In this document: one piece after another, positions 12,933-41,889 of the stretch
Layout of the letters: each line of letters starts with the position of its first letter
How positions within the stretch are numbered: the stretch's first letter is position 1
Source of the DNA: Phytopseudomonas straminea
Lineage (GTDB): Bacteria; Pseudomonadota; Gammaproteobacteria; Pseudomonadales; Pseudomonadaceae
Length of the DNA stretch: 64,000 nucleotides
Direction of reading: 5' to 3'
Assembly: GCF_900112645.1 (NCBI RefSeq)
Contig: NZ_FOMO01000001.1
Span: 310,001 to 374,000, forward strand
Made by a program: the position numbers and the translations under genes
The notes under the pieces: model-generated
What the model was told of the DNA's origin: nothing
Seen by the model: only the letters and a program-made list of their open reading frames with translations
Databases searched by the model: none

Positions 12933-13646
12933 ATGCAGTTCAGGATCGATCAATGGCGTGCCTGGGCCCCCGGCCTGGACAGTACGGATGACTGGCTCGC
13001 CTGGAGCAAGGCGCCCGAACGCCTTGCCGATGGTGCTGAACAGCCCGATGTCGGCTTTCTGCCCGCTCTGCAGCGCCGCCGCCTGAGCCGCCTGGCGCGC
13101 ATGGTGTTCCAGGTCGCCTGGCCGCTGGCCGAAGGACATTCCGCGCTACCGCTGGTATTTGCCTCGCGACACGGCGAAACCCCGCGCAACCTGGCCATTC
13201 TCAAGGACCTTGCGGTTAAAGAGCCGCTGTCGCCGACACAGTTCAGCCTTTCTGTGCACAACGCGATCATCGGTCAGTGGTCGATCATGCGCGGCGACAC
13301 CAGCGAGATGACCGCCCTGGCCGGCGAAGGCGATGGTCTGGAAATGGCCATGCTCGAGGCCCTGAGCCTGCTGGCCGAGGGTGCACCGGCGGTTTTGCTG
13401 GTGATCGGCGAAGAAGCCCAGCCAGAGCCCTATGCGCCGTTCATCGACGATGTCCCGTTCCCTTACGCCCTGGCCTTGCTGCTCAAACCCGGCGACGACT
13501 GGCGCCTGGCACTGCACAACGCCAGCGGCCCGCACAGTGGATGGCCACACCCTCTGAGCCTGATCCAGTGCCTGAGTACAGACGGCACCTCCCTTCAACA
13601 CACCTGGAAAGAGCGCCAATGGACCTGGTCACGCCAAAGCCTGTGA
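12933..13646 (+). CDS. apeC: APE ketosynthase-like chain length factor ApeC
   Basis: 237 residues, the short KS-like partner that pairs with the ketosynthase ApeO in aryl polyene assembly. Where a ketosynthase has its nucleophile in TACSS or similar, this protein has FSLSVHNAIIGQ, so it has no catalytic cysteine, as expected of a CLF. It opens the co-directional pigment run. I chose ATG 12933 because family members begin with an I/F-x-QWxAWAPG segment directly after the start; the frame stays open to about 12804, so the start is uncertain. The 233 bases between this gene and parA must hold both divergent promoters, but no clear -35/-10 pair stands out. Confidence 0.82.
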   Translation: MQFRIDQWRAWAPGLDSTDDWLAWSKAPERLADGAEQPDVGFLPALQRRRLSRLARMVFQVAWPLAEGHSALPLVFASRHGETPRNLAILKDLAVKEPLSPTQFSLSVHNAIIGQWSIMRGDTSEMTALAGEGDGLEMAMLEALSLLAEGAPAVLLVIGEEAQPEPYAPFIDDVPFPYALALLLKPGDDWRLALHNASGPHSGWPHPLSLIQCLSTDGTSLQHTWKERQWTWSRQSL

Positions 13647-14428
13647 AGCACTACAGCCCGCCCTATTGGTGGCGACTGATCGCCACGGCGGCCAGCTTCA
13701 CGCTGTTCGGCATCGGCGGCGTGCTGCTGCGCATTCTGGTGTTCCCGGTATTGTCCCTGCTGCCTGGCGACGCCGCCGCTCACCAGCGCCGCGCCCGCCG
13801 GGTGGTCAGCCTGACCTTTCGCACCTTCGTCGAATTCATGTACCGCAGCGGCGTGCTCACCTATGAAGTCGAAGGCGCCGAGCGCCTGGGCCGCCCAGGG
13901 CAGATGATCATCGCCAACCACCCCTCGCTGATCGACGTGGTGGTGACCATCGCCTTCACCCGCGACACCAACTGCGTGGTCAAGCAGAGCCTGTGGAACA
14001 ACCCCTGCATGCGTGGGCCGATCCGCTCGGCCGGCTACATCAGCAACAGCGGCAGCATGGACATGCTCGACGAAGCCGCCGGCGCACTGCAGCAAGGCCA
14101 GACCCTGGTGATCTTCCCGGAAGGCACGCGCACCACGCCCGGCCAGCCGCCGGAATTTCACCGCGGCGCCGCGGCCATCGCCCTGCGCGGCGCGCGAATC
14201 ATTACCCCGGTGGTGATCAGCGTCTCGCCTACCACCCTGACCAAGGCCGAGCCCTGGTACCGGATTCCCGAGCGGCGCTTCCACATCCGCCTGCGCGTCG
14301 GCGAAGACATCGACCCGGCGCACTTCGCCGCCATGGGCGCGGCGCCAGTCGCGTCGCGCAAACTCAACGATCATCTGCATCAGCATTTCATACAGGAGCT
14401 CGCCAAAGATGAGCGCTCTACAGCTTGA
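13619..14428 (+). CDS. apeD: PlsC-like acyltransferase ApeD
   Basis: 269 residues: an N-terminal hydrophobic stretch (about 20-48), then a 1-acylglycerol-3-phosphate acyltransferase fold with the catalytic NHPSLID box (His101, Asp106) and FPEGTRTTPG. Such membrane acyltransferases move an acyl group from an acyl carrier to an alcohol. In APE loci the enzyme is thought to attach the polyene or a fatty acid to a lipid-like anchor; the acceptor is unproven. ATG 13619 has GGAAAGAG upstream and overlaps apeC by 28 bases. Confidence 0.82.
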   Translation: MDLVTPKPVKHYSPPYWWRLIATAASFTLFGIGGVLLRILVFPVLSLLPGDAAAHQRRARRVVSLTFRTFVEFMYRSGVLTYEVEGAERLGRPGQMIIANHPSLIDVVVTIAFTRDTNCVVKQSLWNNPCMRGPIRSAGYISNSGSMDMLDEAAGALQQGQTLVIFPEGTRTTPGQPPEFHRGAAAIALRGARIITPVVISVSPTTLTKAEPWYRIPERRFHIRLRVGEDIDPAHFAAMGAAPVASRKLNDHLHQHFIQELAKDERSTA

Positions 14429-14669
14429 GATCAAAAACCTGATCATCGACTCCCTCGGCCTGGAGGATGTCACCCCTCAGGACATCGACGACGACATGAC
14501 CCTGTTCGGCGAAGGCCTGGGCCTGGACTCGGTCGACGCCCTTGAGCTCGGCCTGGCCATCCAGAAGCGTTTCGGCATCAAGATCGACGCCGAAGCCAAG
14601 GACACCCGCACCCATTTCGCCAACGTGGCCAGCCTGGCAGCCTTCGTTGCCAGCCGCCAGGCAGCTTGA
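14409..14669 (+). CDS. apeE: Acyl carrier protein ApeE
   Basis: 86 residues, acidic, four-helix ACP type. The phosphopantetheine-attachment serine is Ser41 in GLGLDSVDALELG. It overlaps apeD by 20 bases. APE loci encode two dissimilar ACPs, one of which carries the growing polyene. No phosphopantetheinyl transferase is encoded in the window, so activation must come from elsewhere in the genome. Confidence 0.93.
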   Translation: MSALQLEIKNLIIDSLGLEDVTPQDIDDDMTLFGEGLGLDSVDALELGLAIQKRFGIKIDAEAKDTRTHFANVASLAAFVASRQAA

Positions 14670-14680
14670 GGACGATGACC

Positions 14681-14938
14681 ATGCAAACCCGTGAGGAAAT
14701 CTTCGCCACCTTGCGCGACGCCCTGGTTGAGCTGTTCGAACTAAGCCCCGAGCGCATCAGCCTGGACGCCAACCTGTACGAAGACCTGGAGATCGACAGC
14801 ATCGACGCCGTCGACCTGATCGACCACATCAAGCGCCAGACCGGCAAGAAGATCGCCGCCGAGGCGTTCAAAACCGTGCGCACCGTCGGCGACGTGGTCG
14901 AGGCGGTTTATCAGATGGTCAACGCGGAACCCGCATGA
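14681..14938 (+). CDS. apeF: Acyl carrier protein ApeF
   Basis: 85 residues with attachment Ser40 in LEIDSIDAVDLI, distinct from ApeE (LDSVDALEL). The ribosome site GAGGA at 14668-14672 lies eight bases from ATG 14681 but only two bases from the alternative ATG at 14675, which decides the start. The stop overlaps the apeG start by four bases. Confidence 0.92.
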   Translation: MQTREEIFATLRDALVELFELSPERISLDANLYEDLEIDSIDAVDLIDHIKRQTGKKIAAEAFKTVRTVGDVVEAVYQMVNAEPA

Positions 14939-15480
14939 GCCGTCTGTTCGGCCTGCTGGTCACGCTGGTCAGCGTGGCCTACCCGTTCGCCGTGTATTTC
15001 GGCGCCGGGCACCTGTCGCCAACGCTGTTCGCCGCCCTGCTTGGCGGCCTGTGGCTGGCGCGCCTGCTCAGCAACCCGGCTGACCGCAACAGCCGGCGCA
15101 TGACCGGCGCCGTGCTGGTGTTCTGCGTGCTGCTGGTGCTGGCCGACGAGCCGGCGCTGCTGCGTTGGTATCCGGTACTGGTCAGCCTGCTGCTCGGCCT
15201 GCTGTTCGCCAGCAGCCTGAAGATCGGCATGCCGATGGCCGAACGCCTGGCGCGCCTGCGAGAACCCGAACTGCCCCCGGTGGCGGTGCGCTACACCCGC
15301 CGCGTCACCGAGGTATGGGCCGCCTTCATGCTCAGCAACGGCCTGCTGGTGGTGGCGCTGAACCTGTGGGCACCGCTGTCTTGGTGGGCGCTGTACACCG
15401 GGCTGATTTCCTACCTGCTGATGGGCCTGCTATTCGCCGGCGAATGGCTGGTGCGTCAACGTGTAAGGAGAACCGCATGA
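14935..15480 (+). CDS. apeG: Predicted inner-membrane protein ApeG (COG4648-like)
   Basis: 181 residues with about five to six hydrophobic segments beginning at residue 3. It contains the arginine-rich loop YTRRVTEVWAAFMLSN that I associate with the COG4648 membrane proteins of APE loci. Function is unknown; its constant presence between the ACPs and the ligase suggests a role in anchoring the synthase or its product at the membrane. It is coupled to both neighbours by four-base ATGA overlaps. Confidence 0.75.
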   Translation: MSRLFGLLVTLVSVAYPFAVYFGAGHLSPTLFAALLGGLWLARLLSNPADRNSRRMTGAVLVFCVLLVLADEPALLRWYPVLVSLLLGLLFASSLKIGMPMAERLARLREPELPPVAVRYTRRVTEVWAAFMLSNGLLVVALNLWAPLSWWALYTGLISYLLMGLLFAGEWLVRQRVRRTA

Positions 15481-17135
15481 GCTGGCTGAACCTCGAAGAC
15501 CTGCTGCTAGAGGCCGACGCCAGCCGCCAGGTGACGCCCGAACTCGAGCACGCCGAGCTGCGCCGCCGCGCCTTGTGCCTGGCCGCCCACTGGCAGACAG
15601 CCGGTGTGCAGCGCGTCGCCCTGCACCTGCATGACGCCGCCGAGCTGGCCATCGCGCTGCTCGCCGCCTGGCAGGCCCACATCCACGTGCTGCTGCCCGC
15701 CGATGCGCAGCCGCAGACCCGCCAGCGCCTGGGCGCTCAGGTCGACCTGTGGATCGAGCAGCTCGACGAAACGATTGCCGCCGAGCCGCTTGCCGCCAAG
15801 CGGCTGGACCGCGAGCGCTGCCGCCTGACCCTGTGCACCTCCGGCTCCAGCGGCGAGCCCAAGCTGATCGACAAGAGCCTTGGCCAGCTGGCCAACGAAG
15901 TCGAGGCGCTGGAAGCCTTGTGGGGCGAGCGCCTGGGCGATGCGCTGATCATCGGCAGCGTGGCCGCCCAGCACATCTACGGCCTGCTGTTCCGCGTGCT
16001 CTGGCCGCTGTGCGCAGGCCGCATGTTCATGCCCAAGGCTCAACCGTTCCCAGAAGACCTGCAGCTGGCCAGCCTGCCGCACCCGAAATTTGCCTGGATC
16101 ACCAGCCCGGCGCTGCTCAAGCGCATGGGCGACAACCTCGACTGGGCGGCGCTGAGCCGCGTGCGCCAGGTGTTCTCCTCCGGCGGCGCCCTGCCGGCCG
16201 ATGCTGCCGCCTCGGTGCTCGAGCGCCTGGGCCAGTGGCCGACGGAAATCTACGGCAGCTCGGAAACCGGCGGCATCGGCTGGCGCCAGGGCGGGCAGCA
16301 CTGGCAGCCATTCGCCGGCGTGCAGCTCGAGGTCAACGAAGAAGGCGCCCTGCGCCTCAGCTCGCCCTACCTGCCGGCCGGGCACTGGGAGCAGATGGCT
16401 GACGCCGTGGAGATCCACGCCGACGGCCGCTTCACCCTCGGCGCGCGCCTGGACCGCATCGTCAAGCTGGAAGAAAAACGTATCTCCCTGCCCCTGCTCG
16501 AACAGGCCCTGGCCCAGCATGCTTGGGTCAGCGAGGCGCGCCTGGGCGTGCTGCAGCAGGGCCGCGCCTTTCTCGGCGCGCTGGTGGCGCTGTCGCCGGA
16601 AGGCATCCACACGCTGCGCAATCAGGGCCGTCGGCACCTGACCGAAGGCCTGCGCCAGCACCTGGCCGGCCACTGCGAGGCCATAGCCTTGCCGCGCCGC
16701 TGGCGCCTGCTGCCGCACCTGCCCTACAGCAGCCAGGGCAAGCTGGGCCAGGCCCAGGTCAACGAGCTGCTGGCCGCCGCCCGGCCAACCCGCGTCGAGC
16801 CGGCCAGCGCCCGTGAGGATAACGGCGAGTGGCATCTGGAACTGGACGTGCCGCTCGATCTGGCCCACTTCAGCGGCCACTTTCCCGGCACTCCGGTGCT
16901 GCCCGGTGTGGTGCAGATCGACTGGGCCCAGCAACTGGCCCGCGAGCTGATCAACGACCTGCCGCCGCTGTTCGGCGGCATGGAAGTGCTCAAGTTTCAG
17001 CAGCTGGTGCGCCCTGGTGACCGCCTGCAGCTGACCCTGCGTTTCGACGCCGAGCGCAGCAAGCTGTACTTCACCTTCCGCAGCGGCGAAGCCAACTGCT
17101 CGTCCGGGCGCATCCTGCTCAAGGCGGCGCCATGA
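15477..17135 (+). CDS. ApeH-ApeI fusion: aryl-ACP/CoA ligase plus hotdog dehydratase
   Basis: 552 residues. Residues 1 to about 440 form an adenylate-forming ligase with the P-loop [11 protein letters not shown] and the [12 protein letters not shown] motif, expected to activate the aryl starter acid and load it on an ACP. From about residue 455 a FabA/FabZ-like hotdog domain carries [15 protein letters not shown] with the catalytic histidine. In reference clusters, as I recall, these are two separate genes (apeH, apeI). Here the frame is continuous with no stop or internal ribosome site, so it is a genuine fusion. The neighbours are joined by ATGA overlaps. Confidence 0.88.
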
Positions 17136-17875
17136 GCGGTTTGCAGCATCGCCCCTGCGCGCTGATCCCGGTGTACAACCACGAAGGGCCGCTGCCCGGC
17201 GTGGTCGCCAGTTTACTGGCCGCCGGCTTGCCGTGTCTGCTGGTCGACGACGCTTCAGGCCCAAGCTGCGCCGCGGTGATCGACCGCCTGGCTTGTGAAG
17301 CCGACACCCATCTGCTGCGCCTGCCGGAGAACCAGGGCAAGGGCGGCGCGGTGATGGCCGGCCTGCGTGAAGCGCAGCGCCTGGGCTTCACCCACGCCCT
17401 GCAGGTGGACGCCGACGGCCAGCACGACCTGCAGGCGGTGCGCGCCTTTCTTGACGAATCTCGCGCCCACCCCGAGGCCATCATCTGCGGCTATCCGCAG
17501 TACGACGCCAGCGTGCCGAAGAGCCGTCTCTATGCGCGTTACCTGACCCACGTGTGGGTGTGGATCAACAGCCTGTCGCTGGAGATTCGCGACTCCATGT
17601 GCGGCTTCCGGGTCTACCCGCTGGCCGCCAGCGTGGCGCTGATCGACTCGGCGAAACTGGGCAAGCGCATGGATTTCGACTCGGAAATCCTCGTGCGCCT
17701 GTCCTGGCGCGGGCAGCCGATGCGCTGGCTGCCGACCCGGGTGCACTACCCCGAGGACGGCGTCTCGCACTTCCGCCTCTGGCAGGACAACGTGCTGATC
17801 TCGAAAATGCACGCCCGACTGTTCTTCGGCATGCTCTGTCGCGCGCCCGTGCTGCTCTACCGGCGGTGGCGCTGA
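17132..17875 (+). CDS. apeJ: Family 2 glycosyltransferase (ApeJ N-terminal equivalent)
   Basis: 247 residues of GT-A fold: LIPVYNHE at the N-terminus, VDDAS, NQGKGGAVMAGL and the metal-binding DADGQHD near residue 90. It resembles dolichol-phosphate mannose synthase-like enzymes but has no C-terminal membrane helices. It presumably adds a sugar or sugar phosphate to the pigment head or its anchor. The stop and the next start overlap in TGATG. In E. coli I recall this domain fused to the acyltransferase encoded next. Confidence 0.8.
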   Translation: MSGLQHRPCALIPVYNHEGPLPGVVASLLAAGLPCLLVDDASGPSCAAVIDRLACEADTHLLRLPENQGKGGAVMAGLREAQRLGFTHALQVDADGQHDLQAVRAFLDESRAHPEAIICGYPQYDASVPKSRLYARYLTHVWVWINSLSLEIRDSMCGFRVYPLAASVALIDSAKLGKRMDFDSEILVRLSWRGQPMRWLPTRVHYPEDGVSHFRLWQDNVLISKMHARLFFGMLCRAPVLLYRRWR

Positions 17876-18810
17876 TGCAGCGTTCCAGCCACTGGGCCAG
17901 CCAGCGCGAGCGCGGCAGCTTCGCCCTGATGAAATTCACCGCCCTGGCCGCCCGCCATCTCGGCCGCCGGGCGCTGAGCCCACTGCTGTACCTGATCGTC
18001 GCCTACTTCTTCGTGGCCGGCGGCAAGGCGCGGCGCAGCATTCACCAGTACCAGCACAACCTCGCCGAGTGGAGCGCACGCCCCGACCTGCACCCGAGCC
18101 GCCGCTCGGTGTTCGCCCAGTTCATGGCCTTCGCCGACAGCCTGCTCGACAAGCTCGATGTGTGGAGCGGCCGCCTCAAGCTGAGCGACGTCGAGCTGGT
18201 CGACCCCCACGGCCTGCACGGGCAGATGAACGGCAGCCGCGGCCAGCTGCTGGTCGGCGCCCACCTGGGCAACCTCGAAGTGTGCCGCGCCCTGGCCGAG
18301 CTGAGCGCCCGGGTGCGCATGAACGTGCTGGTGCACACCCGCCACGCCGAACAGTTCAACCGCCTGCTCAACGAAAGCGGCGCCAGCAACCTGCGGCTGA
18401 TTCAGGTCAGCGAGCTGGACCCGGCGGTGATGCTGCGCCTGGCCGAGCACCTGGAGCGCGGCGAGTGGCTGGCGATTGCCGGCGACCGCGTGCCGCTGCA
18501 TGGCGAGCGCACCGTCGAGGTGAATTTTCTCGGCCACCCAGCGCCGCTGCCGCAAGGCCCCTGGCTGCTCGCCGGGCTGCTGCGCTGCCCGGTCAACCTG
18601 ATCGACTGCCTGAAGATCGACGGCCGCTATCAGGTCATGCTGCAGCCCTTCACCGACGCCGTGCAGTGGAAGCGCAGCGAGCGCCAGGCGGTGATTCAGG
18701 GCTGGGCGCAACGCTACGCCGATCACCTCGCCGGACGCTGCCTGCAAGCCCCGCAGCAGTGGTTCAACTTCTATCCGTTCTGGAACGACCATGACAACAC
18801 AGCAGCCTGA
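17875..18810 (+). CDS. LpxL/HtrB-like acyltransferase (ApeJ C-terminal equivalent)
   Basis: 311 residues of the lipid A acyltransferase family. The catalytic HX4E is His130/Glu135 in GAHLGNLEVCR, with a hydrophobic segment near residues 35-48 that would sit at the inner membrane. These enzymes use acyl-ACP donors, so the protein could move the finished aryl polyene acyl chain or a fatty acid to a lipid-linked acceptor. It is translated immediately after the glycosyltransferase (TGATG junction) and overlaps the ammonia-lyase gene by 20 bases. Confidence 0.82.
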   Translation: MQRSSHWASQRERGSFALMKFTALAARHLGRRALSPLLYLIVAYFFVAGGKARRSIHQYQHNLAEWSARPDLHPSRRSVFAQFMAFADSLLDKLDVWSGRLKLSDVELVDPHGLHGQMNGSRGQLLVGAHLGNLEVCRALAELSARVRMNVLVHTRHAEQFNRLLNESGASNLRLIQVSELDPAVMLRLAEHLERGEWLAIAGDRVPLHGERTVEVNFLGHPAPLPQGPWLLAGLLRCPVNLIDCLKIDGRYQVMLQPFTDAVQWKRSERQAVIQGWAQRYADHLAGRCLQAPQQWFNFYPFWNDHDNTAA

Positions 18811-20332
18811 AACCGTGACCTTCGGCGCGCAGCCTCTGCGTCTCGAGCAGATCGTCAGCCTGGCCCAGCGACGCGCGCGCGGCGTGCTCGACGACAGCCC
18901 AGCCTGGCGCGAGCGCATCGCCCGCGGTGCGCGTTTCGTCGACCGCCTGCTGGACCGCGAAGGCATGATCTACGGCATCACCACCGGCTACGGCGACTCC
19001 TGCGTGGTGGCCGTGCCGCTGCATCAGGTCGAGGCGCTGCCGCGTCATCTTTACACCTTCCACGGTTGCGGCCTGGGCAAGCTGCTCGACGAGCAGGCCA
19101 CCCGCGCCGTGCTGGCCGCGCGTTTGCAGTCGCTGTGCCAGGGCATGTCCGGCGTGCGCCTGGAACTGCTCGAGCGCCTGCAGGCGTTTCTCGACCACGA
19201 CGTGCTGCCGCTGATCCCGGAAGAAGGCTCGGTGGGCGCCAGCGGCGACCTGACGCCGCTGTCCTACATCGCCGCGACCCTGTGTGGCGAGCGCGAGGTG
19301 ATGTACCGCGGTGAGCGCCGCAGCGCCGCTGACGTGCACGCCGAACTGGGCTGGACACCGCTGGTGCTGCGCCCCAAGGAAGCCCTGGCGCTGATGAACG
19401 GCACTGCGGTGATGACCGCCCTGGCCTGCCAGGCCTATTCGCGCGCCGATTACCTGCTCAAGCTGGCCACGCGCATCACCGCGCTCAACGTCATCGCCCT
19501 GCAGGGCAACCCGGAGCACTTCGACGAGCGCCTGTTCGCCGCCAAGCCGCACCCGGGCCAGAACCAGGTGGCCGCGTGGATCCGCCAGGACCTGGCCATC
19601 GACGCGCCGACCGCGCCGCTGCATCGCCTGCAGGATCGTTATTCCATCCGCTGTGCACCCCACGTGCTCGGCGTACTGGCCGACAGCCTGGGGCTGCTGC
19701 GCCAGTTCATCGAAAACGAACTGAACAGCGCCAACGACAACCCGCTGATCGACCCCGATGAAGAACGCGTCCTGCACGGCGGGCACTTCTACGGCGGGCA
19801 TATCGCCTTCGCCATGGACAGCCTGAAGAACCTGATCGGCAACCTCGCCGACCTGCTCGACCGCCAACTCGCCCTGTTGGTCGACACCCGCTACAACCAC
19901 GGCCTGCCGAGCAACCTGTCCGGCGCCCCCGTGGAAACCGCGATGATCAACCACGGCTTCAAGGCCGTGCAGATCGGCGCCAGTGCCTGGACCGCCGAAG
20001 CCCTGAAGAACACCCTGCCGGCCAGCGTGTTCTCGCGCTCCACCGAGTGCCACAATCAGGACAAAGTGAGCATGGGCACCATCGCCGCCCGCGACGCCCT
20101 GCGCAGCCTGGAGCTGGCCGAGCAGGTCGCGGCCGCCACGCTGATCGCCGCCAACCAGGGCGTATGGCTGCGCCAACGTGCCGAAGCCACCGTGCTGCCC
20201 GCCGCCCTGGCCGAGATGCACGGGCAGTTGGGCGAGGACTTCCCGCCGCTGATCGAGGATCGCGCCCTGGAAGGCGAACTGCGCCTGTGCCTGCAACGCA
20301 TCCGCGCTCAGCACTGGAGCCTGTATGTCTGA
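18791..20332 (+). CDS. Aromatic amino acid/histidine ammonia-lyase family enzyme
   Basis: 513 residues. The self-cyclising Ala-Ser-Gly of the MIO cofactor is at 150-152 in GSVGASGDLTPLSYIA, the catalytic tyrosine is Tyr61 in YGITTGYGD, and NDNPLID is present. The substrate-selectivity pair, Ser-His in histidine ammonia-lyases, is Phe90-His91 here (LYTFHGCGLG), so it is not an ordinary HutH, and no hut genes adjoin. In this cluster it should deaminate tyrosine or phenylalanine to coumarate or cinnamate for use as the aryl starter. The choice between Tyr and Phe is not settled by sequence alone. Confidence 0.88.
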   Translation: MTTQQPETVTFGAQPLRLEQIVSLAQRRARGVLDDSPAWRERIARGARFVDRLLDREGMIYGITTGYGDSCVVAVPLHQVEALPRHLYTFHGCGLGKLLDEQATRAVLAARLQSLCQGMSGVRLELLERLQAFLDHDVLPLIPEEGSVGASGDLTPLSYIAATLCGEREVMYRGERRSAADVHAELGWTPLVLRPKEALALMNGTAVMTALACQAYSRADYLLKLATRITALNVIALQGNPEHFDERLFAAKPHPGQNQVAAWIRQDLAIDAPTAPLHRLQDRYSIRCAPHVLGVLADSLGLLRQFIENELNSANDNPLIDPDEERVLHGGHFYGGHIAFAMDSLKNLIGNLADLLDRQLALLVDTRYNHGLPSNLSGAPVETAMINHGFKAVQIGASAWTAEALKNTLPASVFSRSTECHNQDKVSMGTIAARDALRSLELAEQVAAATLIAANQGVWLRQRAEATVLPAALAEMHGQLGEDFPPLIEDRALEGELRLCLQRIRAQHWSLYV

Positions 20333-20421: not shown

Positions 20422-20847
20422 ATGCGCGCTAAAGGCGTTCTGCAAGCCGAAGTGGAAATCCTCGTACCGTTCTTCGACGTGGACATGATGGAAATCGTCT
20501 GGCACGGCCACTACGTCAAATACTTCGAGCAGGCGCGCTGTGCCCTGCTCGACAAGCTCGACCACGGCTACCCGCAGATGCGCGACAGCGGCTACGCCTG
20601 GCCAGTAATCGACCTGCAGTTGCGTTACATCCGCGGCGCCACCTTCGGCCAGCGCATCAGCGTATGCGCCGATCTGGTGGAGTGGGAAAACCGCCTGAAG
20701 ATCCACTACCTGATCAGCGACACCGCCACCGGCGAACGCATGACCCGCGGCAGCAGCGTGCAGGTCGCGGTGGAGATCGCCAGCCGCGAAATGCAGCTGG
20801 CCTCGCCCAAGGTGTTTGTCGATGCCGTGCAGCGGGTGATTGGATGA
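20422..20847 (+). CDS. apeK: Hotdog acyl-thioesterase ApeK
   Basis: 141 residues of the 4HBT/YbgC family: VPFFDVDMMEIVWHGHYVKYFEQAR carries the catalytic Asp and the HGHY helix (the stretch spans about residues 15-39). In APE assembly the thioesterase releases or edits ACP-bound polyene acids. ATG 20422 follows the REP element, and the stop overlaps the next start by four bases. Confidence 0.87.
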   Translation: MRAKGVLQAEVEILVPFFDVDMMEIVWHGHYVKYFEQARCALLDKLDHGYPQMRDSGYAWPVIDLQLRYIRGATFGQRISVCADLVEWENRLKIHYLISDTATGERMTRGSSVQVAVEIASREMQLASPKVFVDAVQRVIG

Positions 20848-21452
20848 AAGCCCTGGCGCGTTTCTCATTGCTGATCGGCCTGCTGTTCACCGCGTTGGTC
20901 AGCCAGGCCGATACCTTCACCCTCGATGCCCTGAGCCAACAGCTCTCGCAACACCCCGTGGTGCGTGGTCCATTCGTGCAGGAAAAGCACCTGCGCGCCC
21001 TCCCGCAACCGCTGACCAGCAGCGGCACCTTCGTGCTGGCCGCCGATGCCGGCCTGTTGTGGAAGCTGGAAAAACCGCTCAAGCAGGATTACCGCATCGA
21101 CGCCAACGGCATCGCCAAGCGCACCGCCGACGGCTGGCAGATGCAACCGGGGCGCGACGTGGCGGCCCAGCAGAGCAAGCTGTTTCTCGACGTGCTCAAG
21201 GGCAACCACAGCGGCCTGGCGCGCAATTTCGCGCTGCAGCTCAGTGGCGATGCCAAGGCCTGGACCCTGACCCTGACGCCGACCTCGCTGCTGCTCAAGC
21301 AGGTGTTCAGCCGTATCGACATCGGCGGTGGCGAACTGGTCGAGCGCATCGAACTGCACGAAACCCAGGGTGACCGCACCTTGCTGCGCATGTCCGCCAG
21401 CATCGCCGGCGACGCCCTGAGCGAACAGGAGCGCAGCGATTTTGCGCGCTGA
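20844..21452 (+). CDS. apeL: LolA-like periplasmic carrier ApeL
   Basis: 202 residues with a signal peptide (MKALARFSLLIGLLFTALVSQA, cleavage after about residue 22) and the LolA pattern: HPVVRGPFVQEKHLRALPQPLTS in the region of residues 38-60, then F-x-L near AADAGLLW and a two-sheet barrel. LolA proteins carry lipophilic cargo across the periplasm. In APE loci this member probably shuttles the pigment from the MMPL pump to the outer membrane. It overlaps apeK by four bases and the pump gene by eleven. Confidence 0.85.
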   Translation: MKALARFSLLIGLLFTALVSQADTFTLDALSQQLSQHPVVRGPFVQEKHLRALPQPLTSSGTFVLAADAGLLWKLEKPLKQDYRIDANGIAKRTADGWQMQPGRDVAAQQSKLFLDVLKGNHSGLARNFALQLSGDAKAWTLTLTPTSLLLKQVFSRIDIGGGELVERIELHETQGDRTLLRMSASIAGDALSEQERSDFAR

Positions 21453-31414: not shown

Positions 31415-31433
31415 CACCCCAGGAGAAAAACCG

Positions 31434-31874: not shown

Positions 31875-31898
31875 GCGCCTGCTTCCCCCTGCCAAACA

Positions 31899-31920: not shown

Positions 31921-31942
31921 CATCACAAGGAAGTTGCTCAGC

Positions 31943-33731: not shown

Positions 33732-34608
33732 ACTCAGCCGCCTCGCCTATCGCTACCCTGGCGCCGCGCGACCGGCGCTGCAGGGCATCGACCTGCAGCT
33801 GCAGGCCGGCCAGTGCCTGGGGCTGCTGGGCAGCAACGGCGCCGGCAAGACCACCCTGCTGTCGTTGCTTAGTGGCGTGCTGCAGCCGCTCGATGGGCAG
33901 ATCGCCTGGCACGGCGAGCGGCGCCTGGGTCTGGTGCCCCAGCAGTTGGCCTTTTACGCCGGGCTGAAGGTGCGGGAGAACCTCGCGCTGTTCGCCGATC
34001 TCTATGGGCTGCGCGGCGCCGAGCGGCGCCAGCGCCTGGAGCGCTGCATCGCCAGCACGTCCCTGGAAGACAAGCTCGAGCGCCGCGCCGAGCGCTTGTC
34101 CGGCGGCGAGCAGCGGCGCCTGAACTTCGCCATCGGCCTGCTGCAACCGGCCGAGCTGTACCTGTTCGATGAGGCCACCGTGGGCGTCGACGCCGCCAGC
34201 CGGCAGTTGCTGCTCGACGCCGTGCAGCAGCTGACCGCCGATGGCAAGGCGGTGATCTACACCAGTCATTACCTGGATGAAGTGGAAAAGATCGCCGACC
34301 GCATCCTGCTGCTGCACGAAGGCCGCGTGCAGCTGGATGTCGACACGCGCCAGTTGCTCGGCGACCAGCCGGGGCTGTTTCTGGAATGGCCCGAGGGTAT
34401 GCCGCAAGCCTTGCCGGCGCTGCTGGCCGAACTCGAGCTGAGCACCGAGCCCACGCCGGACGGCCTGCGCATCGCCGCGCTGAACGTCGAACAGCTGCTG
34501 GCGATCACCCGCTTCATCGCGGCACAGCCGCAAGCGCCCAGCCTGCTGCGCTTCGGTCGGCCGTCTCTGGAGCAGCTGTACCTGCGCCTCAACGGAGGTC
34601 GCCTGTGA
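33724..34608 (+). CDS. ABC transporter ATP-binding protein
   Basis: 294 residues: Walker A GSNGAGKT at 36-43, ABC signature LSGGEQRRLNFAIG, Walker B LYLFDEATVGVD and H-loop TSHYLDE. It resembles the drug/lipid exporters of the ABC-2 class. A GTG start at 33724, eight bases inside the preceding gene, keeps the N-terminal LELSRLAYRYPG strand; the longer frame is unrelated sequence. The stop overlaps the permease GTG in GTGA. Confidence 0.92.
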   Translation: MLELSRLAYRYPGAARPALQGIDLQLQAGQCLGLLGSNGAGKTTLLSLLSGVLQPLDGQIAWHGERRLGLVPQQLAFYAGLKVRENLALFADLYGLRGAERRQRLERCIASTSLEDKLERRAERLSGGEQRRLNFAIGLLQPAELYLFDEATVGVDAASRQLLLDAVQQLTADGKAVIYTSHYLDEVEKIADRILLLHEGRVQLDVDTRQLLGDQPGLFLEWPEGMPQALPALLAELELSTEPTPDGLRIAALNVEQLLAITRFIAAQPQAPSLLRFGRPSLEQLYLRLNGGRL

Positions 34609-35792: not shown

Positions 35793-36040
35793 AAGAAAAG
35801 CTCAAGCAATTGCTGATTCGCGAGTGCGACAAAGAAGACGATATCGACTGGCAGAGCATTACCGACGACGAACCGCTGTTCGGCCAGCAGAGCCGCATCC
35901 AGATGGACAGCCTCGACGCCCTGCAGGTCTCCCTGGCGCTGCAGCAGCACTACGGGGTGCGCATCGAAGGCGCCCAGGATGGCCGCCGCATTCTCAATAG
36001 CATCGCCAGTATCGCGGCCTTCATCAGGCAACAGGCGTGA
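35774..36040 (+). CDS. Third acyl carrier protein
   Basis: 88 residues, acidic. Attachment Ser46 lies in IQMDSLDALQVSLALQQHYG. It overlaps the permease gene by 19 bases and the KS gene by four (GTGA), so it is expected to be made with the KS and CLF-like partner. It differs clearly from ApeE and ApeF and probably carries the chain destined for DarB. Confidence 0.9.
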   Translation: MDHTLLEEKLKQLLIRECDKEDDIDWQSITDDEPLFGQQSRIQMDSLDALQVSLALQQHYGVRIEGAQDGRRILNSIASIAAFIRQQA

Positions 36041-37143
36041 CGCCCGTCTACCTGCAGCGCGGCGCCCTGCACAGCGCCCTCGGCATCGACCTGCGCGCCG
36101 CCAACGCCGCCCTGCGTAGCGGCGTGCGGCCAATTGCTGAAACCGTACTGCTGCACGAGTTGCAGGAACCACGGCCGTATCTGGCCGTGGTAGGCAACGA
36201 AACCCCGGGCGAGCATTTCGACCGGCTGATCCGCGAAACCCTGGGCGACGCGCCCGGCGCGCTGGACGACTGCCTGCTGATCGTCGCCAGCACCAGTCTG
36301 GATATCGACGAGCTGGAAGCGCAGGCCGCTCGAAATGGCGGCTTTCACCCGGATCACTCGACCTCCCTCGACCTGATCGCTGACCGCTTGCGCCAGCGTT
36401 GGGGCTTCAATGATGCCTTCACCCTCAACACCGCCTGCACCAGCGCCGCCAATGGCCTGCTCTACGGTGCCCGGATGCTCGGTACCGGGCTCTATCGGCG
36501 GGTGCTGGTATTGGCCTTCGAAACACCCAGCGCCATCGCTCAGCAGGGCTTTGGCGCTCTGGGCCTGGTCTCGCCGAGCGGCGAGTACCGGCCTTTTCAT
36601 CCGCAACGCGATGGCCTGGTGCTCGGCGAAGCCTACGCGGCCACCCTGCTGGCCCTGGAGCCCGGCCCGGCGCCGCTGGCGCGCCTGCTTGGCGGCTTCA
36701 GCGCCTGCGACACCAGCAGCCTGACCAATACCCGCGAAGACGGCAGCCATATCGAATGGGTGATGCGCCAAGCCCTGCGCAGCGCTGGCGTGGATGCCAC
36801 GCAGATCGGCCTGGTCAAGCCCCACGGCACCGCCACCGGCGCCAACGACCGCGCCGAAAGCAACGGCGTAAGCCTGCTGTTCGGCGACGCGCTGCCGCCG
36901 CTCTGTGTGCTCAAGCCCTGGCTCGGCCACACCCTGGGCGCCTGCGGCCTGACCGAAACCCTGCTGCTGGTGGAAAACCTCGCCCACCTGCCCGCCTGCA
37001 ATTACGCTGGTGACACGCTGCTGCCGCTGCCGAGCGAACCACTGGCGATCAGCGAAGGCAGCCTGCTGCTGGCCAACTACTTCGGCTTCGGCGGCAACAA
37101 CGCCAGCCTGGTGTTGCAACGCGGCGCGGGAGACACACCATGA
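36037..37143 (+). CDS. Ketosynthase of the second module
   Basis: 368 residues, shorter than ApeO but complete: Cys134 in NTACTSAANG, His263 in KPHGTATGAND and His298 in LGHTLGACGLTE. It therefore should be active in condensation. The N-terminal 100 residues are more compact than in KAS II, and the C-terminal FGFGGNNASLVL loop is intact. GTG start in the ACP stop (GTGA). It overlaps the CLF-like gene by four bases, consistent with a KS:CLF heterodimer. Confidence 0.88.
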   Translation: MTPVYLQRGALHSALGIDLRAANAALRSGVRPIAETVLLHELQEPRPYLAVVGNETPGEHFDRLIRETLGDAPGALDDCLLIVASTSLDIDELEAQAARNGGFHPDHSTSLDLIADRLRQRWGFNDAFTLNTACTSAANGLLYGARMLGTGLYRRVLVLAFETPSAIAQQGFGALGLVSPSGEYRPFHPQRDGLVLGEAYAATLLALEPGPAPLARLLGGFSACDTSSLTNTREDGSHIEWVMRQALRSAGVDATQIGLVKPHGTATGANDRAESNGVSLLFGDALPPLCVLKPWLGHTLGACGLTETLLLVENLAHLPACNYAGDTLLPLPSEPLAISEGSLLLANYFGFGGNNASLVLQRGAGDTP

Positions 37144-37691
37144 ATCCAACCATCGCAGCCTGCAGCGTAAGCGGCGACGCACAGGACACCGACAAGGACC
37201 TGAAAGCCGCGCTGATCAACTGGCTGCCGACCACGCCGCGTCGCATCGATCGGCTGATCCTCCAGGCGCTGCTATGCACCGCGCCGCTCAAGGCCAAGAT
37301 CCGCCGTGACTGCGGCCTGTACCTGGCCTCCCGCCATCCAGCGCGGGCCACCATGGGCTCGCTGCTCGACAGCGTGTGCGTGCACCAGCTGCAACCCAAG
37401 CCCTTCGAATTCGTCAACAGCGTCAGCAACGCCGCCGGCTTCCACGTCGCCGCACAACTGGGCTTGGAAGGCCCGAACCTGTTCATCGGCGCCGGCCCCA
37501 ATGTATGGAAACACCTGCAGGCGTTGGCTGGGCTGGACCTGGCCGACGGCCTGATCGGCCAGGCGCTACTGGTGATGATTGATGAAGACGACGAGTTCAA
37601 GGCGCAGGCGGTGCTAATTGAGAGACCAAGCCAGGCAGCGGATTTTGCCGAGCTGACAGCGGGGATCGATGTGCTGCAGTTGCAGCTCTAA
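37140..37691 (+). CDS. Cysteine-less short KS-like (CLF-like) protein
   Basis: 183 residues corresponding to the N-terminal part of a ketosynthase. At the nucleophile position it reads FVNSVSNAAGFHVAA, the same SVxNA pattern as ApeC (SVHNA), with no cysteine. By analogy it would be the chain-length partner of the KS encoded immediately upstream. It contains no His pair and cannot condense alone. The N-terminal half carries basic residues that may face an ACP. It ends the plus-strand module, with convergent repeats following. Confidence 0.78.
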   Translation: MNPTIAACSVSGDAQDTDKDLKAALINWLPTTPRRIDRLILQALLCTAPLKAKIRRDCGLYLASRHPARATMGSLLDSVCVHQLQPKPFEFVNSVSNAAGFHVAAQLGLEGPNLFIGAGPNVWKHLQALAGLDLADGLIGQALLVMIDEDDEFKAQAVLIERPSQAADFAELTAGIDVLQLQL

Positions 37692-37912: not shown

Positions 37913-38914
37913 TCAGCCCTTACGCCTGGCCCAAGCCCCCAGCTCTTTCATCAAAACCCGCTCCTGGCTGGCAATCCCCCGCAGCATCTCGGCAATCGGC
38001 CGGAAGTCCGGTGCTTCGCCCTTGCTGCGGCTGGCGCGCACGCAGGCAGAGGCGAACTGGCGCCAGTCGTCGCCCACCGCGGTCAGGCGCGTCGAGGCTT
38101 CGCGCAAGGTGGCGTCGCCGATCTTCTCGCCGGCCTCCTGCAAAAAACTCGCGTACATGAAGCGAAAACCGGCGCCGCCGGTGCCGATCTCTTCCTGCAT
38201 GCGCACGATGTGGGTGAGGTACAGGCGGTTGTATTTGGCCTGAACCGGGTCGAGTTTCTCCACGCAGCTGGCCAGGTGGCGGATACCGCGAATTCCGATC
38301 CACGGCAGCGGCAGGCCATCGAGGATGCGCGTGGTGGACAGCACGCTCTGGCGAATCAGCCGCTGCCAGTCCTGCTCGGGCGGCACATCGTCCAGGTAAT
38401 ACATCAGCCCCTTGGCCGCCAGGGCGCCCTTGGCGAAGCGCGCCTTCTGCAGGTCCGCGGCGGCGCAGCGCACCGGCGCCTCGAACACCGGGTCGCTGAG
38501 CAGGTAGTCGTCGCCCTCGCGCCCATAGGCCAGCAGGTTGTGGGCATTGAAGTGAAAGCGCATCTCCGGCGGGAAGTACGGCAGCCAGAACACCGAACTC
38601 TGCAGCCCGACCAGGCGGCCGCTGTCCAGCGCTTCGTCGAGGGCTTGCCGGCCCTGCTCGGGGTTGTTGAAGGTGCGGCTGGTCAGGCGCACGCCCAGGC
38701 GTTTGCTGAGCGTCTTGATCAGGTGCCGCGGCGGCATGCGGTAGGCGATCAGCGGCATACCACCGAGCTTGACGATCGGCAGGTAGGCGAACGCCAGGCC
38801 CGAGGCCAGGCCGAAGGCCATCGGCTCGCTCATCGGCAAGCCGGCCTGGCTCAGCAGGCTGGCCATCACGCCGCTTTCGCAGTGAGCGCTCTGGCGATGC
38901 TCGAACGCGCTCAT
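37913..38914 (-). CDS. BtrH N-terminal domain protein (candidate acyltransferase)
   Basis: 333 residues. The first 150 resemble the BtrH N-terminal, papain-like acyltransferase fold: Cys12 in HCESGVMASLL, His125 in FHFNAHNLLAYG and Asp141 in YLLSDPVFE could form a catalytic triad. BtrH itself moves an ACP-bound acyl group to an aminoglycoside. Proteins of this type occur in flexirubin/DAR loci, where they could move the aryl polyene acyl chain to a resorcinol hydroxyl. The C-terminal half is helical with no known domain. ATG 38914 overlaps the preceding stop by four bases, which fixes the start. Confidence 0.8.
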   Translation of the reverse strand: MSAFEHRQSAHCESGVMASLLSQAGLPMSEPMAFGLASGLAFAYLPIVKLGGMPLIAYRMPPRHLIKTLSKRLGVRLTSRTFNNPEQGRQALDEALDSGRLVGLQSSVFWLPYFPPEMRFHFNAHNLLAYGREGDDYLLSDPVFEAPVRCAAADLQKARFAKGALAAKGLMYYLDDVPPEQDWQRLIRQSVLSTTRILDGLPLPWIGIRGIRHLASCVEKLDPVQAKYNRLYLTHIVRMQEEIGTGGAGFRFMYASFLQEAGEKIGDATLREASTRLTAVGDDWRQFASACVRASRSKGEAPDFRPIAEMLRGIASQERVLMKELGAWARRKG

Positions 38915-39318
38915 GGCAATTCCTTCTGGTAACGACGCAACTCGTCGATGGTCAGGCCGAAGGCTTCGGCATAGCGGGCCAGCAGCGAATCGCTCAGGCG
39001 CCGGTAGATTTCCGGGCGAAAGTGCCGGCGCACGCGCCATTGCCAGAGCCCGGCGATCTGCGCCAGGGCGGGCAGGTCCATGCGGTAGCGGTACATCAGG
39101 CACTCGAGCGGCGATGCCTCGCCACGTTGCCAGGCGGCATGGGCCTCGGCTTCCTGGGCCTGCAGCTCGGCGACCGCCAGCTGGGTGGAATAGGACTCCG
39201 GCTCCCAGCCGGCGCTCGGCGCGCCCTGGTACCGGCCCTTGTCATCGACGGCATAGAGCAGTTTGCTGTGCCCGCCGTAAGCGGAATCCGGGTCCTGGGG
39301 AACCTCGTCAAGCTTCAT
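38911..39318 (-). CDS. Small helix-turn-helix-like protein of the DAR locus
   Basis: 135 residues. The N-terminal 45 contain KLLYAVDDKGRYQ and SAGWEPES; the C-terminal 70 are helical and basic (ALAQIAGLWQWRVRRHF and LARYAEAFGLTIDELRRYQ), which reads like an XRE-type helix-turn-helix. I recall similar uncharacterised proteins next to darB in other DAR loci but know no function. It could be a regulator or a small partner of the ketosynthase. ATG 39318 is preferred over the in-frame TTG six bases upstream. It overlaps darB by eleven bases and the BtrH-like gene by four. Confidence 0.75.
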   Translation of the reverse strand: MKLDEVPQDPDSAYGGHSKLLYAVDDKGRYQGAPSAGWEPESYSTQLAVAELQAQEAEAHAAWQRGEASPLECLMYRYRMDLPALAQIAGLWQWRVRRHFRPEIYRRLSDSLLARYAEAFGLTIDELRRYQKELP

Positions 39319-40465
39319 CGCCAACCACCGTCAGGTGCATGAACGCACTGGAGAAACGACCGCTTTCCGGCACGTAGCAGAGCAGCTTCTGGCCACTGCG
39401 CAGATGCCCGCCATTGAACAGCTCTTCTAAGATGATGAAGATCGACGCTGCGCCGGTATTGCCCTTGCTCGTCAGGTTGGTGAACCAGCGCGCCATGGGA
39501 ATCGGCAGGTCGACCTCGGCCAGGCCGGCCGCCAGGCGCTCGCGGAAGAATTCGGACGAGTAATGCGGCAGGAACCAGTCGATGTCCGCCACACGCAACT
39601 CGCGGCGCGCCATGATGCGGCGCAGCGCCTCGACCACGGTGAGGCGCACGATGTTGTCGTTGAGCAGTTTGACGTCCTGCTTGACCGCCATCACCGAGCG
39701 CTGCGCGCGCTGCTCGGCGTCATAGCTTGTCCAGCCACGCAGCTCGCCACCTTCCATCTCCGCACCGGCATACATGCAGGCCGACATCTGACCAGCGAAG
39801 GAGACGATGTCCAGCCAGTCGATGCGCAGGCTCAGGCCCTTCGAATTGGGGCGGTCCTGCAGCAGCACCGCGCCGGCGCCGTCGGAGAGCATCCAGCGCA
39901 GAAAGTCCTTCTCGAAGGCGATTTCCGGGTGCGTCTCCAGCTCGTCGACACGGCTCTCGTATTCGGCGTTGAAGTTACGCGCCTGCATCATCGCCGAGGC
40001 CACCTCCGAGCCGCAGGCCACGGCGTTGCAGCTCTGCCCGCTGGCCACGCTCATCCAGGCATATTTCAGGGCAGTCATCCCGCACACGCAGATGCCGGCA
40101 GTGGTTGCCACTTCGCAGGGCGGGTTGCCCAACTCGCCATGCACCATCACCGCATGGCCGGGCATCACCTGGTCAGGCGACGAGGTACTGGCCACCAGAC
40201 ACTCAAGCGTATTCAGGTCGAAGCCATCGCCGACCAGGCCGCGAATCGCCTCGGCGCTGAGCTGGGCGTTGTTCATGCTCGGCTCGCCGGTGCGCGGATC
40301 GATGACGTAGTGGCGCTGCTGGATGCCGTTGCGACGCAGGATCAGCTTGCGCGCCCGTGACGGCTTGTCGCCGACCATGCCGAGGCGTGCTTCCATCTGT
40401 TCGTTGTCGACTGGCTCGTGGGGCAGGCAGGTACTGATGCGATTGATGAATACGGGTGTAGCCAT
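39308..40465 (-). CDS. darB: DarB ketosynthase (KAS III-like, dialkylresorcinol synthesis)
   Basis: 385 residues of the FabH/thiolase fold. The nucleophile region reads TTAGICVCGMTALKYA, with Cys126 or Cys128 as the active residue; HYSSEFF and SKGNTGAAS supply the His and Asn of the triad. DarB performs the head-to-head condensation of two 3-oxoacyl thioesters to a cyclohexanedione. ATG 40465 has GAGGA seven bases upstream; a GTG at 40489 overlapping the darA stop is a possible alternative. It lies directly after darA, as in other DAR loci. Confidence 0.9.
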   Translation of the reverse strand: MATPVFINRISTCLPHEPVDNEQMEARLGMVGDKPSRARKLILRRNGIQQRHYVIDPRTGEPSMNNAQLSAEAIRGLVGDGFDLNTLECLVASTSSPDQVMPGHAVMVHGELGNPPCEVATTAGICVCGMTALKYAWMSVASGQSCNAVACGSEVASAMMQARNFNAEYESRVDELETHPEIAFEKDFLRWMLSDGAGAVLLQDRPNSKGLSLRIDWLDIVSFAGQMSACMYAGAEMEGGELRGWTSYDAEQRAQRSVMAVKQDVKLLNDNIVRLTVVEALRRIMARRELRVADIDWFLPHYSSEFFRERLAAGLAEVDLPIPMARWFTNLTSKGNTGAASIFIILEELFNGGHLRSGQKLLCYVPESGRFSSAFMHLTVVGDEA

Positions 40466-40485
40466 AAACTTGTCCTCGGCCTGCG

Positions 40486-41403
40486 TCACTCGCCAGAAGG
40501 CTCGGCGAAATAGGCCTTTTCACGCTGGATGCGCGCCTGGAACAGCGGCGCCAGCAACTTCTTCAGCACCGCGGTGATCGGCACCACGGTGATGATCAGG
40601 CAGATCAGAAAAACGATGTAGACCACCAGTCCGGCACCACGGCGTCGGCTTTGCTGCGGCCCGAGCGCTGACAGCAGGCGGCTCCACAGGGTAAAGCTGC
40701 GATTGCCGACCTTCTCGCTGGCGATCAGCTTCTCGTCCACTTTCACCGCGCCCAGGCCGCTGAGCATCGGCTGCTCGATAGGCTGCTGGTCCGCCAGCAG
40801 GCGGCGCGCCATGGCCTCGCCAAAGCGGCTGGCGGCGGCGATTTCCGTCTCGTCGATACCGGCGCGCGGCACCCAGCTGTAGGGTTTTTGCCGGCCGGTG
40901 AACATCCACAGCGGCGTGGCCAGAAAGCTGGCCGCCGTGCCGCAGGCATCGGTTAGAACCACGTTGTCGACCAGTTTCGCACCCAACGCCTGCAGGCGCG
41001 CCTTGACCTTTTCCTGGGCCATCAGCCACATGTTGCGGCAACCGATCAGGGTCACCACCGGCGTGCCTTTGAGCAACTGCGCGGCCTCGGGAGAGGCGAG
41101 AAAACTGGTGCAGGGCAGCGAGGGCGACAGGAACCACACCTGGTAGGCGAGAATGATCAGGTCATAACGCTTGTCGGGGTCGACGGCCAACGGCAGCAGC
41201 GGCTGTGGTTTCATCAGTACGGTTTCCGGGAAGATCCGGAAGAAGCCGAGAAAGGGCCAGGGAAAGGGAAACGGCTGGGCGGGTTGCAGGGCCAGGAAGT
41301 CGACCTGCACGCCGTCACTCGCCTGCAAGGGCGCACAGACCGATTGCACCAGGCGGTTCAATTGGCCAGTCTGTGAGAAGTGAACGACGAGAACCTGACG
41401 CAT
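40486..41403 (-). CDS. darA: DarA aromatase (dialkylresorcinol condensing enzyme)
   Basis: 305 residues. The N-terminal flavodoxin-like fold begins VLVVHFSQTGQLNRLVQSV, followed by the DarA-specific PFPFPWPFLGFFRIFPE, LIILAYQVWFLSPSLP, IGCRNMW-AQEKVK and VVLTDACG stretches. The C-terminus has a membrane segment (VVYIVFLICLIITVVPI), so the enzyme is probably bound to the inner membrane. DarA aromatises the cyclohexanedione made by DarB to a 2,5-dialkylresorcinol. The match to the DarA pattern is strong. The start lies only 33 bases from a divergent start. Confidence 0.92.
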   Translation of the reverse strand: MRQVLVVHFSQTGQLNRLVQSVCAPLQASDGVQVDFLALQPAQPFPFPWPFLGFFRIFPETVLMKPQPLLPLAVDPDKRYDLIILAYQVWFLSPSLPCTSFLASPEAAQLLKGTPVVTLIGCRNMWLMAQEKVKARLQALGAKLVDNVVLTDACGTAASFLATPLWMFTGRQKPYSWVPRAGIDETEIAAASRFGEAMARRLLADQQPIEQPMLSGLGAVKVDEKLIASEKVGNRSFTLWSRLLSALGPQQSRRRGAGLVVYIVFLICLIITVVPITAVLKKLLAPLFQARIQREKAYFAEPSGE

Positions 41404-41436
41404 TTTTTAAGCGAATCCCTGCAAAATAGGCGGATT

Positions 41437-41889
41437 ATGCCACAGAGACGTCTTCAAATCGTAACCAAACGCTGCGCGGCATGCGCAGTGGTTCTCCTGT
41501 TTGGCACGTTGTCGGCCCAGGCGGGGGATCTCTTGGTGCGCGTGCAAGGCAAGCAGAGTGATGCGCCGCTGTACTTGGGGCTGGTCGCCGCTGACCAGCC
41601 CGACTGGGAGCCGCTGCTGCGCACCCAGCAGGGCAACGGCGAACAGCTGATCGTCAAGGACGTGCCGCCCGGGCGGTTTGCCCTGCAGCTGTATCAGGAC
41701 AGCAACGGCAACGGCAGGCTCGACCTCAGCCCCCGCGGCATTCCGCTGGAGCCGGTCGGTTTTTCCAGCAACCCGACCTTGCTCAAGGGCAAGCCTGCGC
41801 CCGAGGCGGCGCAGTTCGGGCATGGCGAAGACGACACGCTGATCGACATCCGCCTGCACTCGCCTCGCGGCAAGCCACAGGCGAACTGA
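41437..41889 (+). CDS. Secreted DUF2141-like protein
   Basis: 150 residues with a signal peptide ending SAQA near residue 29. The mature protein is a small beta-sandwich with FALQLYQDSNGNGRLDLSPRG (about residues 80-100), in which DxNxNGxLD resembles a calcium-binding loop, and GIPLEPVGFS typical of DUF2141. Such proteins recur near carotenoid and flexirubin genes in other bacteria; their function is unknown. ATG 41437 is preferred to the in-frame GTG at 41380, which would overlap darA. It converges with hemE, the stops being six bases apart. Confidence 0.75.
   Translation: MPQRRLQIVTKRCAACAVVLLFGTLSAQAGDLLVRVQGKQSDAPLYLGLVAADQPDWEPLLRTQQGNGEQLIVKDVPPGRFALQLYQDSNGNGRLDLSPRGIPLEPVGFSSNPTLLKGKPAPEAAQFGHGEDDTLIDIRLHSPRGKPQAN

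Follow-up and report, generated by a model that had tools for sequence, protein, structure and literature searches.

Pigments that combine an aryl polyene (APE) with a dialkylresorcinol (DAR) are represented by the flexirubins of Bacteroidota and by arcuflavin of Azoarcus sp. BH72. The flexirubin clusters of C. pinensis and F. johnsoniae are described, in the available part of PMC3992019, as holding APE genes together with darA/darB and an ammonia-lyase gene, and the ligase-like FlxW of Chitinophaga was proposed there as ester former. A hybrid APE-DAR cluster of type APE-DAR V1 was reported in 2023 for Pseudomonas sp. 8O and P. chaetocerotis (PMC10165715, in the text available), and for P. fulva 12-X the accessible part of PMC5851621 mentions a cluster of resorcinol-aryl polyene type. 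The open-licence literature on flexirubin-type pigments, in its accessible parts, does not identify the enzyme responsible for linking polyene to resorcinol, an absence which is itself weak evidence. Here we analyse a locus of this kind in a 64-kb window (C8:310001-374000, the whole stretch of DNA analysed) of the 5.0 Mb genome of Phytopseudomonas straminea. It occupies positions 12933–41889 of the window and is chiefly useful because it directs attention, through the BtrH-type protein DarH, to the likely joining enzyme.

Comparison of the locus with described systems

An E. coli-type APE cluster with an added ammonia-lyase gene (12.9–32.5 kb) adjoins a DAR cassette (32.7–41.9 kb; Table 1). 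The APE operon runs on the forward strand from 12933 to about 32542, beginning with a chain-length factor (CLF) resembling a ketosynthase (KS) and ending with lipoprotein-like genes. The cassette (32711–41889) consists of genes for a PEMT-type methyltransferase, a 135-aa protein, the ATPase and permease of an ATP-binding cassette (ABC) transporter, an acyl carrier protein (ACP), a KS and a KS-like half, followed by DarH, DarG, DarB and a DarA-like protein on the reverse strand and a DUF2141 protein on the forward strand. APE genes, DAR genes and DarH, whose joint presence in one genome we take to define a hybrid APE-DAR cluster, are thus found within a single 29-kb stretch.

An earlier note on this DNA had placed an APE set beside a KS/ACP/ABC module, darA-darB and a BtrH gene, and Pfam, NCBIfam and BLASTP confirm this. 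In the cassette, models support the ABC ATPase, the ABC permease, the KS, the protein with BtrH_N and DUF4872 domains, and DarB, which scores 590.9 against a cut-off of 450 with NF005293 but does not reach the narrower model NF053539 (484.8 vs 550). Other parts are weaker: the ACP remains below both cut-offs (Pfam 20.3 vs 20.8, NCBIfam 46.6 vs 70), the second-module 'CLF' appears by eye to be the N-terminal half of a KS without the active Cys, and DarA has no match in Pfam, in NCBIfam or among solved structures (PDB). The name DarA is used because of its position and because it adjoins darB in 78 of 80 loci; these 80 are the part covered by locus analysis of the 323 relatives found by a DarH scan of named genomes.

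E. coli CFT073 has 18 ape genes, and for 16 of them BLASTP finds homologues in the locus (exceptions ApeB and ApeN), with a similar general order. The ApeC/O KS pair, ACPs, AMP ligase, ketoreductase, dehydratases, LolA-like protein and MMPL exporter are all present; ApeH and ApeI of CFT073 correspond to one fused protein and ApeJ to two proteins. The CFT073 cluster differs in lacking an ammonia-lyase, a flavoprotein and a DAR cassette, and a methyltransferase and a membrane protein (23775–24923) of the locus are likewise without counterpart there.

Outside the pseudomonads, the cassette has a counterpart in Azoarcus, where the genes darF, I, C, J, K, E, D, B and A given in Table 1 of PMC3949708 correspond to it. 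Caution is needed with names, as that table shows: DarH of NCBIfam is darE of Azoarcus, whose own darG and darH are different genes. Azoarcus differs from the window in having its APE and DAR genes unlinked and in obtaining the starter from a XanB2-type chorismatase, where the window has an ammonia-lyase. A search for such a chorismatase (PF21168) yielded nothing in the genome of the window, nor in 14 control genomes. With the flexirubin clusters, as far as their description is available, the locus shares APE genes with darA/darB and ammonia-lyase as well as a flavoprotein whose best solved relative is 3nix, but the flexirubin equivalogs for DarG (NF053545, 125.8 vs 170) and FlxA (NF053541, 308.5 vs 700) are missed; the ammonia-lyase also stays below every other lyase equivalog cut-off tested in NCBIfam.

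In Pseudomonas sp. 8O (L114) the APE tail, cassette, DUF2141 gene and hemE are joined as in the window, and DarH is 92% identical; this is a different species, and its match to type V1, as far as that report is available, is by strain name. Since related species have the same layout, the locus itself is ordinary. The product had been thought possibly new in a pseudomonad, a view which does not hold given the same joined layout in 17 named Pseudomonas contigs and the hybrid clusters already published. The locus is real and of an already described kind, new in sequence only, and judged by its genes the fitting label is a hybrid APE-DAR cluster of pseudomonads. The APE-DAR ester proposed for it is the best reading of joint APE and DAR genes that match the arcuflavin dar set of Azoarcus.

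DarH as candidate ester synthase

DarH scores 476.4 against a cut-off of 300 with NF053550, a family which NCBIfam already titles 'BtrH-related acyltransferase DarH', and both BtrH_N and DUF4872 exceed their Pfam cut-offs. Residues C12, H125 and D141 are the same in all 81 sequences. In a fold search, the predicted DarH fold matches the acyl-transfer enzymes CtaG (closthioamide) and CcbD (lincosamide) over 292–309 of 333 residues, that is nearly the whole length, with Cys and His in equal order. Those two enzymes are amide formers (CtaG as proposed), whereas DarH would form a phenol ester, and identity is 10–15%. Against solved structures, neither the DarH sequence nor profile A1 found a relevant relative, the weak profile matches including designed coiled coils and apolipophorins; hence it is the fold search that relates DarH to CtaG and CcbD. 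A single-sequence AlphaFold model of a DarH homologue (P0001) was discarded for its mean confidence (pLDDT) of 39.8. DarH is the likely ester-forming enzyme of the APE-DAR pigment.

We consider it probable that the locus consists of an APE cluster and a separate DAR cassette, apparently inserted downstream, and that DarH joins the polyene to a phenol of the resorcinol to give a flexirubin/arcuflavin-like ester. Our computations show which genes are present and conserved, that DarB, DarH and APE co-occur, and that DarH has the predicted fold and the unvarying Cys, His and Asp described above; the enzymatic steps are inferred. The ammonia-lyase would supply a cinnamic or coumaric starter, which ApeH may load onto ApeE/F and which ApeO/C/Q/P/I would lengthen to the polyene. 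DarB and DarA would build the resorcinol from two acyl chains, one of them perhaps provided by the cassette ACP and KS. The finished polyene would then pass from its carrier protein to Cys12 of DarH, and the resulting thioester would be attacked by a resorcinol hydroxyl group. The product may reach the envelope via ApeL/M or the ABC exporter of the cassette. As ApeD and ApeJ homologues are retained, some polyene may still enter the usual APE lipid anchor through these two.

Co-occurrence of DarB, DarH and APE genes

An even sample of 398 Pseudomonadota genomes was searched with the DarB model NF005293 and the DarH model NF053550. Each exceeds its cut-off in 13 genomes, and these are the identical 13. 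Three further genomes have DarH-like matches far under the cut-off (103–130 bits), and DarB is over cut-off in none of them. DarA, DarG and DarH lie beside DarB in all 13 loci; at eight sub-threshold DarB-like loci none of the three was found. Also near DarB are ABC homologues (12 of 13, not G364) and a cassette-type ACP and KS (12 of 13, not G272 with its 22-kb contig). Among the 80 loci DarG is nearly as constant as DarH (79 of 80), and Pfam gives for it one very weak match of helix-turn-helix type (E 0.25).

ApeP is over cut-off in 71 of the 398 genomes and in 9 of the 13 with DarB and DarH (Fisher p 4.5e-5, uncorrected for relatedness). Of the four DarB-DarH genomes without it, G364 and G272 have many adjacent APE homologues; in G282 and G379 an AMP ligase and an exporter are matched more weakly, about 2 kb from each other. 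All 13 DarB-DarH genomes have APE-type genes, two of them with weak support. The exporter is unmatched in G042, where other APE genes are present. G190 and G058, which have neither DAR genes nor ApeP, show no exporter match and weak ligase matches (E 1e-6).

A full-length DarB-like protein is encoded in 25 of 348 genomes of the genus sample, with DarA, DarG and DarH beside it in 22. An ApeHI orthologue of at least 67% identity occurs in 25 of 25, as a two-piece match in G472, G742, G633 and G589, and a first search for DAR-only clusters in the genus (g3) found 0 of 25. Three DarB genomes have no DarH. Two of them, G437 and G525, hold DarA and DarB only, plus APE, the darA match of G525 spanning two frames. 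At the G437 locus (L222-L223) DarA-DarB is followed by what is by eye an O-methyltransferase-like open reading frame; its product is possibly a free or methylated resorcinol. In the third, G538 (L224-L225), a DarB-like ketosynthase (386 bits) without DarA stands beside a large polyketide synthase and lipid-type genes, as judged by eye; this DarB-like gene is part of a different pathway.

Conversely, darA and darB are missing from the stretch in two of the 80 DarH loci. Aggregatibacter kilianii (L184) has DarB elsewhere in its genome (457 bits). Bibersteinia trehalosi (L187:10001-10981) has no DarB above 22 bits, and its darH frame is stopped late in the gene; a partial ABC ATPase match was found there, but no permease and no cassette KS. 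This one case looks like a decayed APE-DAR cluster, which fits a dependence of DarH on DarB. These two contigs belong to a set from Pasteurellaceae and Neisseria with DarH (L165, L169, L170, L171, L177, L178, L181, L184, L185, L187), in which DarH mostly occurs with DarA, DarB and DarG, and APE genes often adjoin.

The stop in darH of the sole DarB-less genome and the exact tracking of DarB by DarH both speak against separate APE lipid and DAR products, for which DarH would use another acceptor and the two gene sets would share regulation or export only. A complete APE set including ApeD and ApeJ homologues, the two congeners with APE and DarA/DarB but no DarH, and the fact that APE and DAR are unlinked in most relatives examined would all suit such products; as Azoarcus produces the hybrid with a matching gene set, we regard them as unlikely.

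Slightly less probable still is an ester made by another enzyme, be it a FlxW-type ligase, as proposed for Chitinophaga in the available part of PMC3992019, or the cassette KS acting with the KS-like half as an acyltransferase. No second AMP ligase is seen in the cassette. Its KS weakly matches AmcF of NCBIfam, an 'acyltransferase subunit' (119 vs 325), but general KS families match better and the C-H-H residues for condensation are retained. Furthermore, in G472 and G432 neither KS nor ACP lies within about 10 kb of DarA, B, G and H. That DarH is a peptidase or thioesterase which releases or edits chains rather than joining them, as the entry 'BtrH-like peptidase' in the accessible table of PMC3949708 might suggest, appears very improbable.

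Distribution and history of the joined layout

The layout of the window, with the cassette between the APE tail and hemE, occurs in 17 of the 80 loci, all from Pseudomonas; carriers include P. flavescens, punonensis, toyotomiensis, mendocina FFL34, alcaliphila, chengduensis, seleniipraecipitans and strain 8O. Counting the window, 7 of the 22 loci with DarA, DarB, DarG and DarH in the genus sample adjoin APE and hemE; the other 15 do not within about 10 kb, the distance used for linkage (about 20 kb for G054 and G387). Linkage as proof of a hybrid was dropped, as most relatives examined have APE and DAR unlinked over this distance.

In the DAR-positive G372, G054 and G387 of the genus and G023 of the family, the APE operon is at the same site, between Trx2 (in the genus also ParA and Usp) and hemE-gltD, and the DAR cassette lies elsewhere. 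ApeP is 58 kb from DarB on a single contig in G054 and 1.1 Mb from it in G372; G387 and G023 have the two genes on separate contigs. Three genomes without DAR, namely G261 and G310 of the genus and G298 of the family, have the same operon at this site. G356, likewise DAR-less, has the operon as well, with hemE and Trx2 unmatched in the stretch examined. Because congeners keep APE at the hemE site with or without DAR, and the DAR cassette is mostly elsewhere, the joining looks lineage-specific.

Concatenated DarA, B, G and H sequences of the window and of 78 of the 80 loci were used to build a tree (L184 and L187, with DarA and DarB missing in the stretch, were dropped). One clade (SH-aLRT 100) unites the window with the 17 joined loci of Pseudomonas, and the layout label requires 10 changes on this tree. 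Apart from them stand two Thiopseudomonas loci (L154, L158) whose cassette also occupies the APE-hemE gap, but in opposite orientation and flanked by two lipoprotein genes; this is either a separate joining or an inversion. The PEMT and DUF2141 genes bound the cassette in joined loci and, among pseudomonads, in most of the unlinked ones too. Exceptions are L125 and L131, which keep nearby only DarA, B, G, H and DUF2141, and L153 and L155 without PEMT. In our reading of these sequences, the cassette would have come to lie beside APE at the hemE site at least twice; the alternative history is an old joined state with later separations.

The flavoprotein and the question of a halogen

A 'likely halogen' had been suggested for the product; 'possible' is the better word. 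The flavoprotein scores 97.6 against a cut-off of 21 with PF04820, carries a WFWTIP motif and has a Lys aligned with halogenases. Its best solved relative, however, is 3nix (368 bits), named a flavoprotein/dehydrogenase and uncharacterised, with the halogenase CndH (3e1t) well below at 173 bits, and no halogenase equivalog cut-off of NCBIfam is reached (CmlS 153.5 vs 900). DAR-less congeners carry the gene too, and hence it belongs to the APE part. A DNA search of E. coli genomes gave no match to it.

Features of the locus

The assignments are collected in Table 1. Among the flanking genes, hemE and gltD were checked with Pfam; those we take to be gltB, damX, aroB, aroK, pilQ, pilM, ponA and maeB are named from Pseudomonas synteny. 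The adjoining hemE and gltD, and likewise the closest named loci, support an origin from a pseudomonad.

Table 1. Genes of the APE operon, the DAR cassette and the adjoining flank, in window positions
Position	Strand	Assignment	Evidence
12933..13646	+	ApeC-like KS chain-length factor	PF13723 262 bits; 32% to E. coli ApeC
13619..14428	+	ApeD-like acyltransferase	PF01553; 41% to E. coli ApeD
14409..14938	+	ACP pair: ApeE-like (14409-14669), ApeF-like (14666-14938)	PF00550; 59%, 53% to E. coli ApeE, ApeF
14935..15480	+	ApeG-like membrane protein	46% to E. coli ApeG
15477..17135	+	ApeH AMP ligase-ApeI dehydratase fusion	PF00501, PF22818; 34% to E. coli ApeH and ApeI
17132..18810	+	Glycosyltransferase (17132-17875) and LpxL-type acyltransferase (~17872-18810), jointly ApeJ-like	PF00535, PF03279; 55%, 35% to ApeJ
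18791..20332	+	Aromatic amino acid ammonia-lyase, likely starter enzyme	PF00221 526 bits; ASG motif
20422..20847	+	ApeK-like thioesterase	PF13279; 51% to E. coli ApeK
20844..21452	+	ApeL, LolA-like	PF19574; 31% to E. coli ApeL
21442..23778	+	ApeM, MMPL exporter	PF03176; 28% to E. coli ApeM
23775..24923	+	Membrane protein, like Azoarcus arcG antiporter by position only	No Pfam match
24910..26154	+	Flavin adenine dinucleotide (FAD) protein of the halogenase superfamily	PF04820 over cut-off; 3nix 368 bits; CndH 3e1t 173 bits; WFWTIP at 220
26141..26887	+	S-adenosylmethionine (SAM) methyltransferase	PF08241 88 bits
26884..27363	+	ApeN position, LolB-like by position only	No Pfam match; no E. coli ApeN match
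27360..28553	+	ApeO ketosynthase	PF00109/PF02801; 47% to E. coli ApeO
28550..29014	+	ApeP dehydratase	PF22817; 34% to E. coli ApeP
29014..29742	+	ApeQ ketoreductase	58% to E. coli ApeQ
29759..30985	+	ApeR ketosynthase	PF00109; 55% to E. coli ApeR
31010..32542	+	Three lipoprotein-like/secreted proteins, first ApeA-like	38% to E. coli ApeA; no Pfam match
32711..33265	-	PEMT/ICMT-like methyltransferase, left cassette edge	PF04191; adjoins cassette in most pseudomonad loci
33324..33731	+	135-aa protein (hot-dog dehydratase guessed by eye)	No Pfam match over cut-off
33724..34608	+	ABC transporter ATPase	PF00005
34605..35792	+	ABC-2 permease, uncertain start	PF12698/PF01061
35774..36040	+	Cassette ACP	Carrier-type DSL motif; slightly under cut-offs
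36037..37143	+	Cassette ketosynthase with C-H-H residues	PF02801; TACTSA, HGT, GHT
37140..37691	+	KS-like half without active Cys, CLF-like by eye	No Pfam or NCBIfam match
37913..38914	-	DarH, BtrH-type cysteine acyltransferase, likely ester synthase	NF053550 476 vs 300; PF14399, PF16169; C12, H125, D141; fold
38911..39324	-	DarG-family protein	NF053536 176 vs 70
39308..40465	-	DarB ketosynthase	NF005293 591 vs 450; StlD 5gk0 486 bits
40486..41403	-	DarA-like protein	Position beside darB; retained there in 78/80 loci
41380..41889	+	DUF2141 protein, right cassette edge, uncertain start	PF09912
41896..44515	-	hemE (41896-43020), gltD-like (43097-44515)	hemE PF01208 463 bits; gltD PF14691 + Pyr_redox_2

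Significance for the APE-DAR family

We lean modestly towards a wider interpretation, in which DarH is the APE-DAR ester synthase, an O-acylating branch within the BtrH/CcbD/CtaG fold, and the cassette is a portable add-on that became joined to APE more than once and in different layouts. The genus holds natural contrasts, namely APE alone, APE with DarA/DarB without DarH, and APE with DarA, B, G and H; these point to darH as the gene behind the ester and allow a direct test of whether it switches synthesis from separate products to an ester pigment. If this interpretation is true, gaining a portable DAR cassette would make the widespread APE lipid pathway flexirubin-like.

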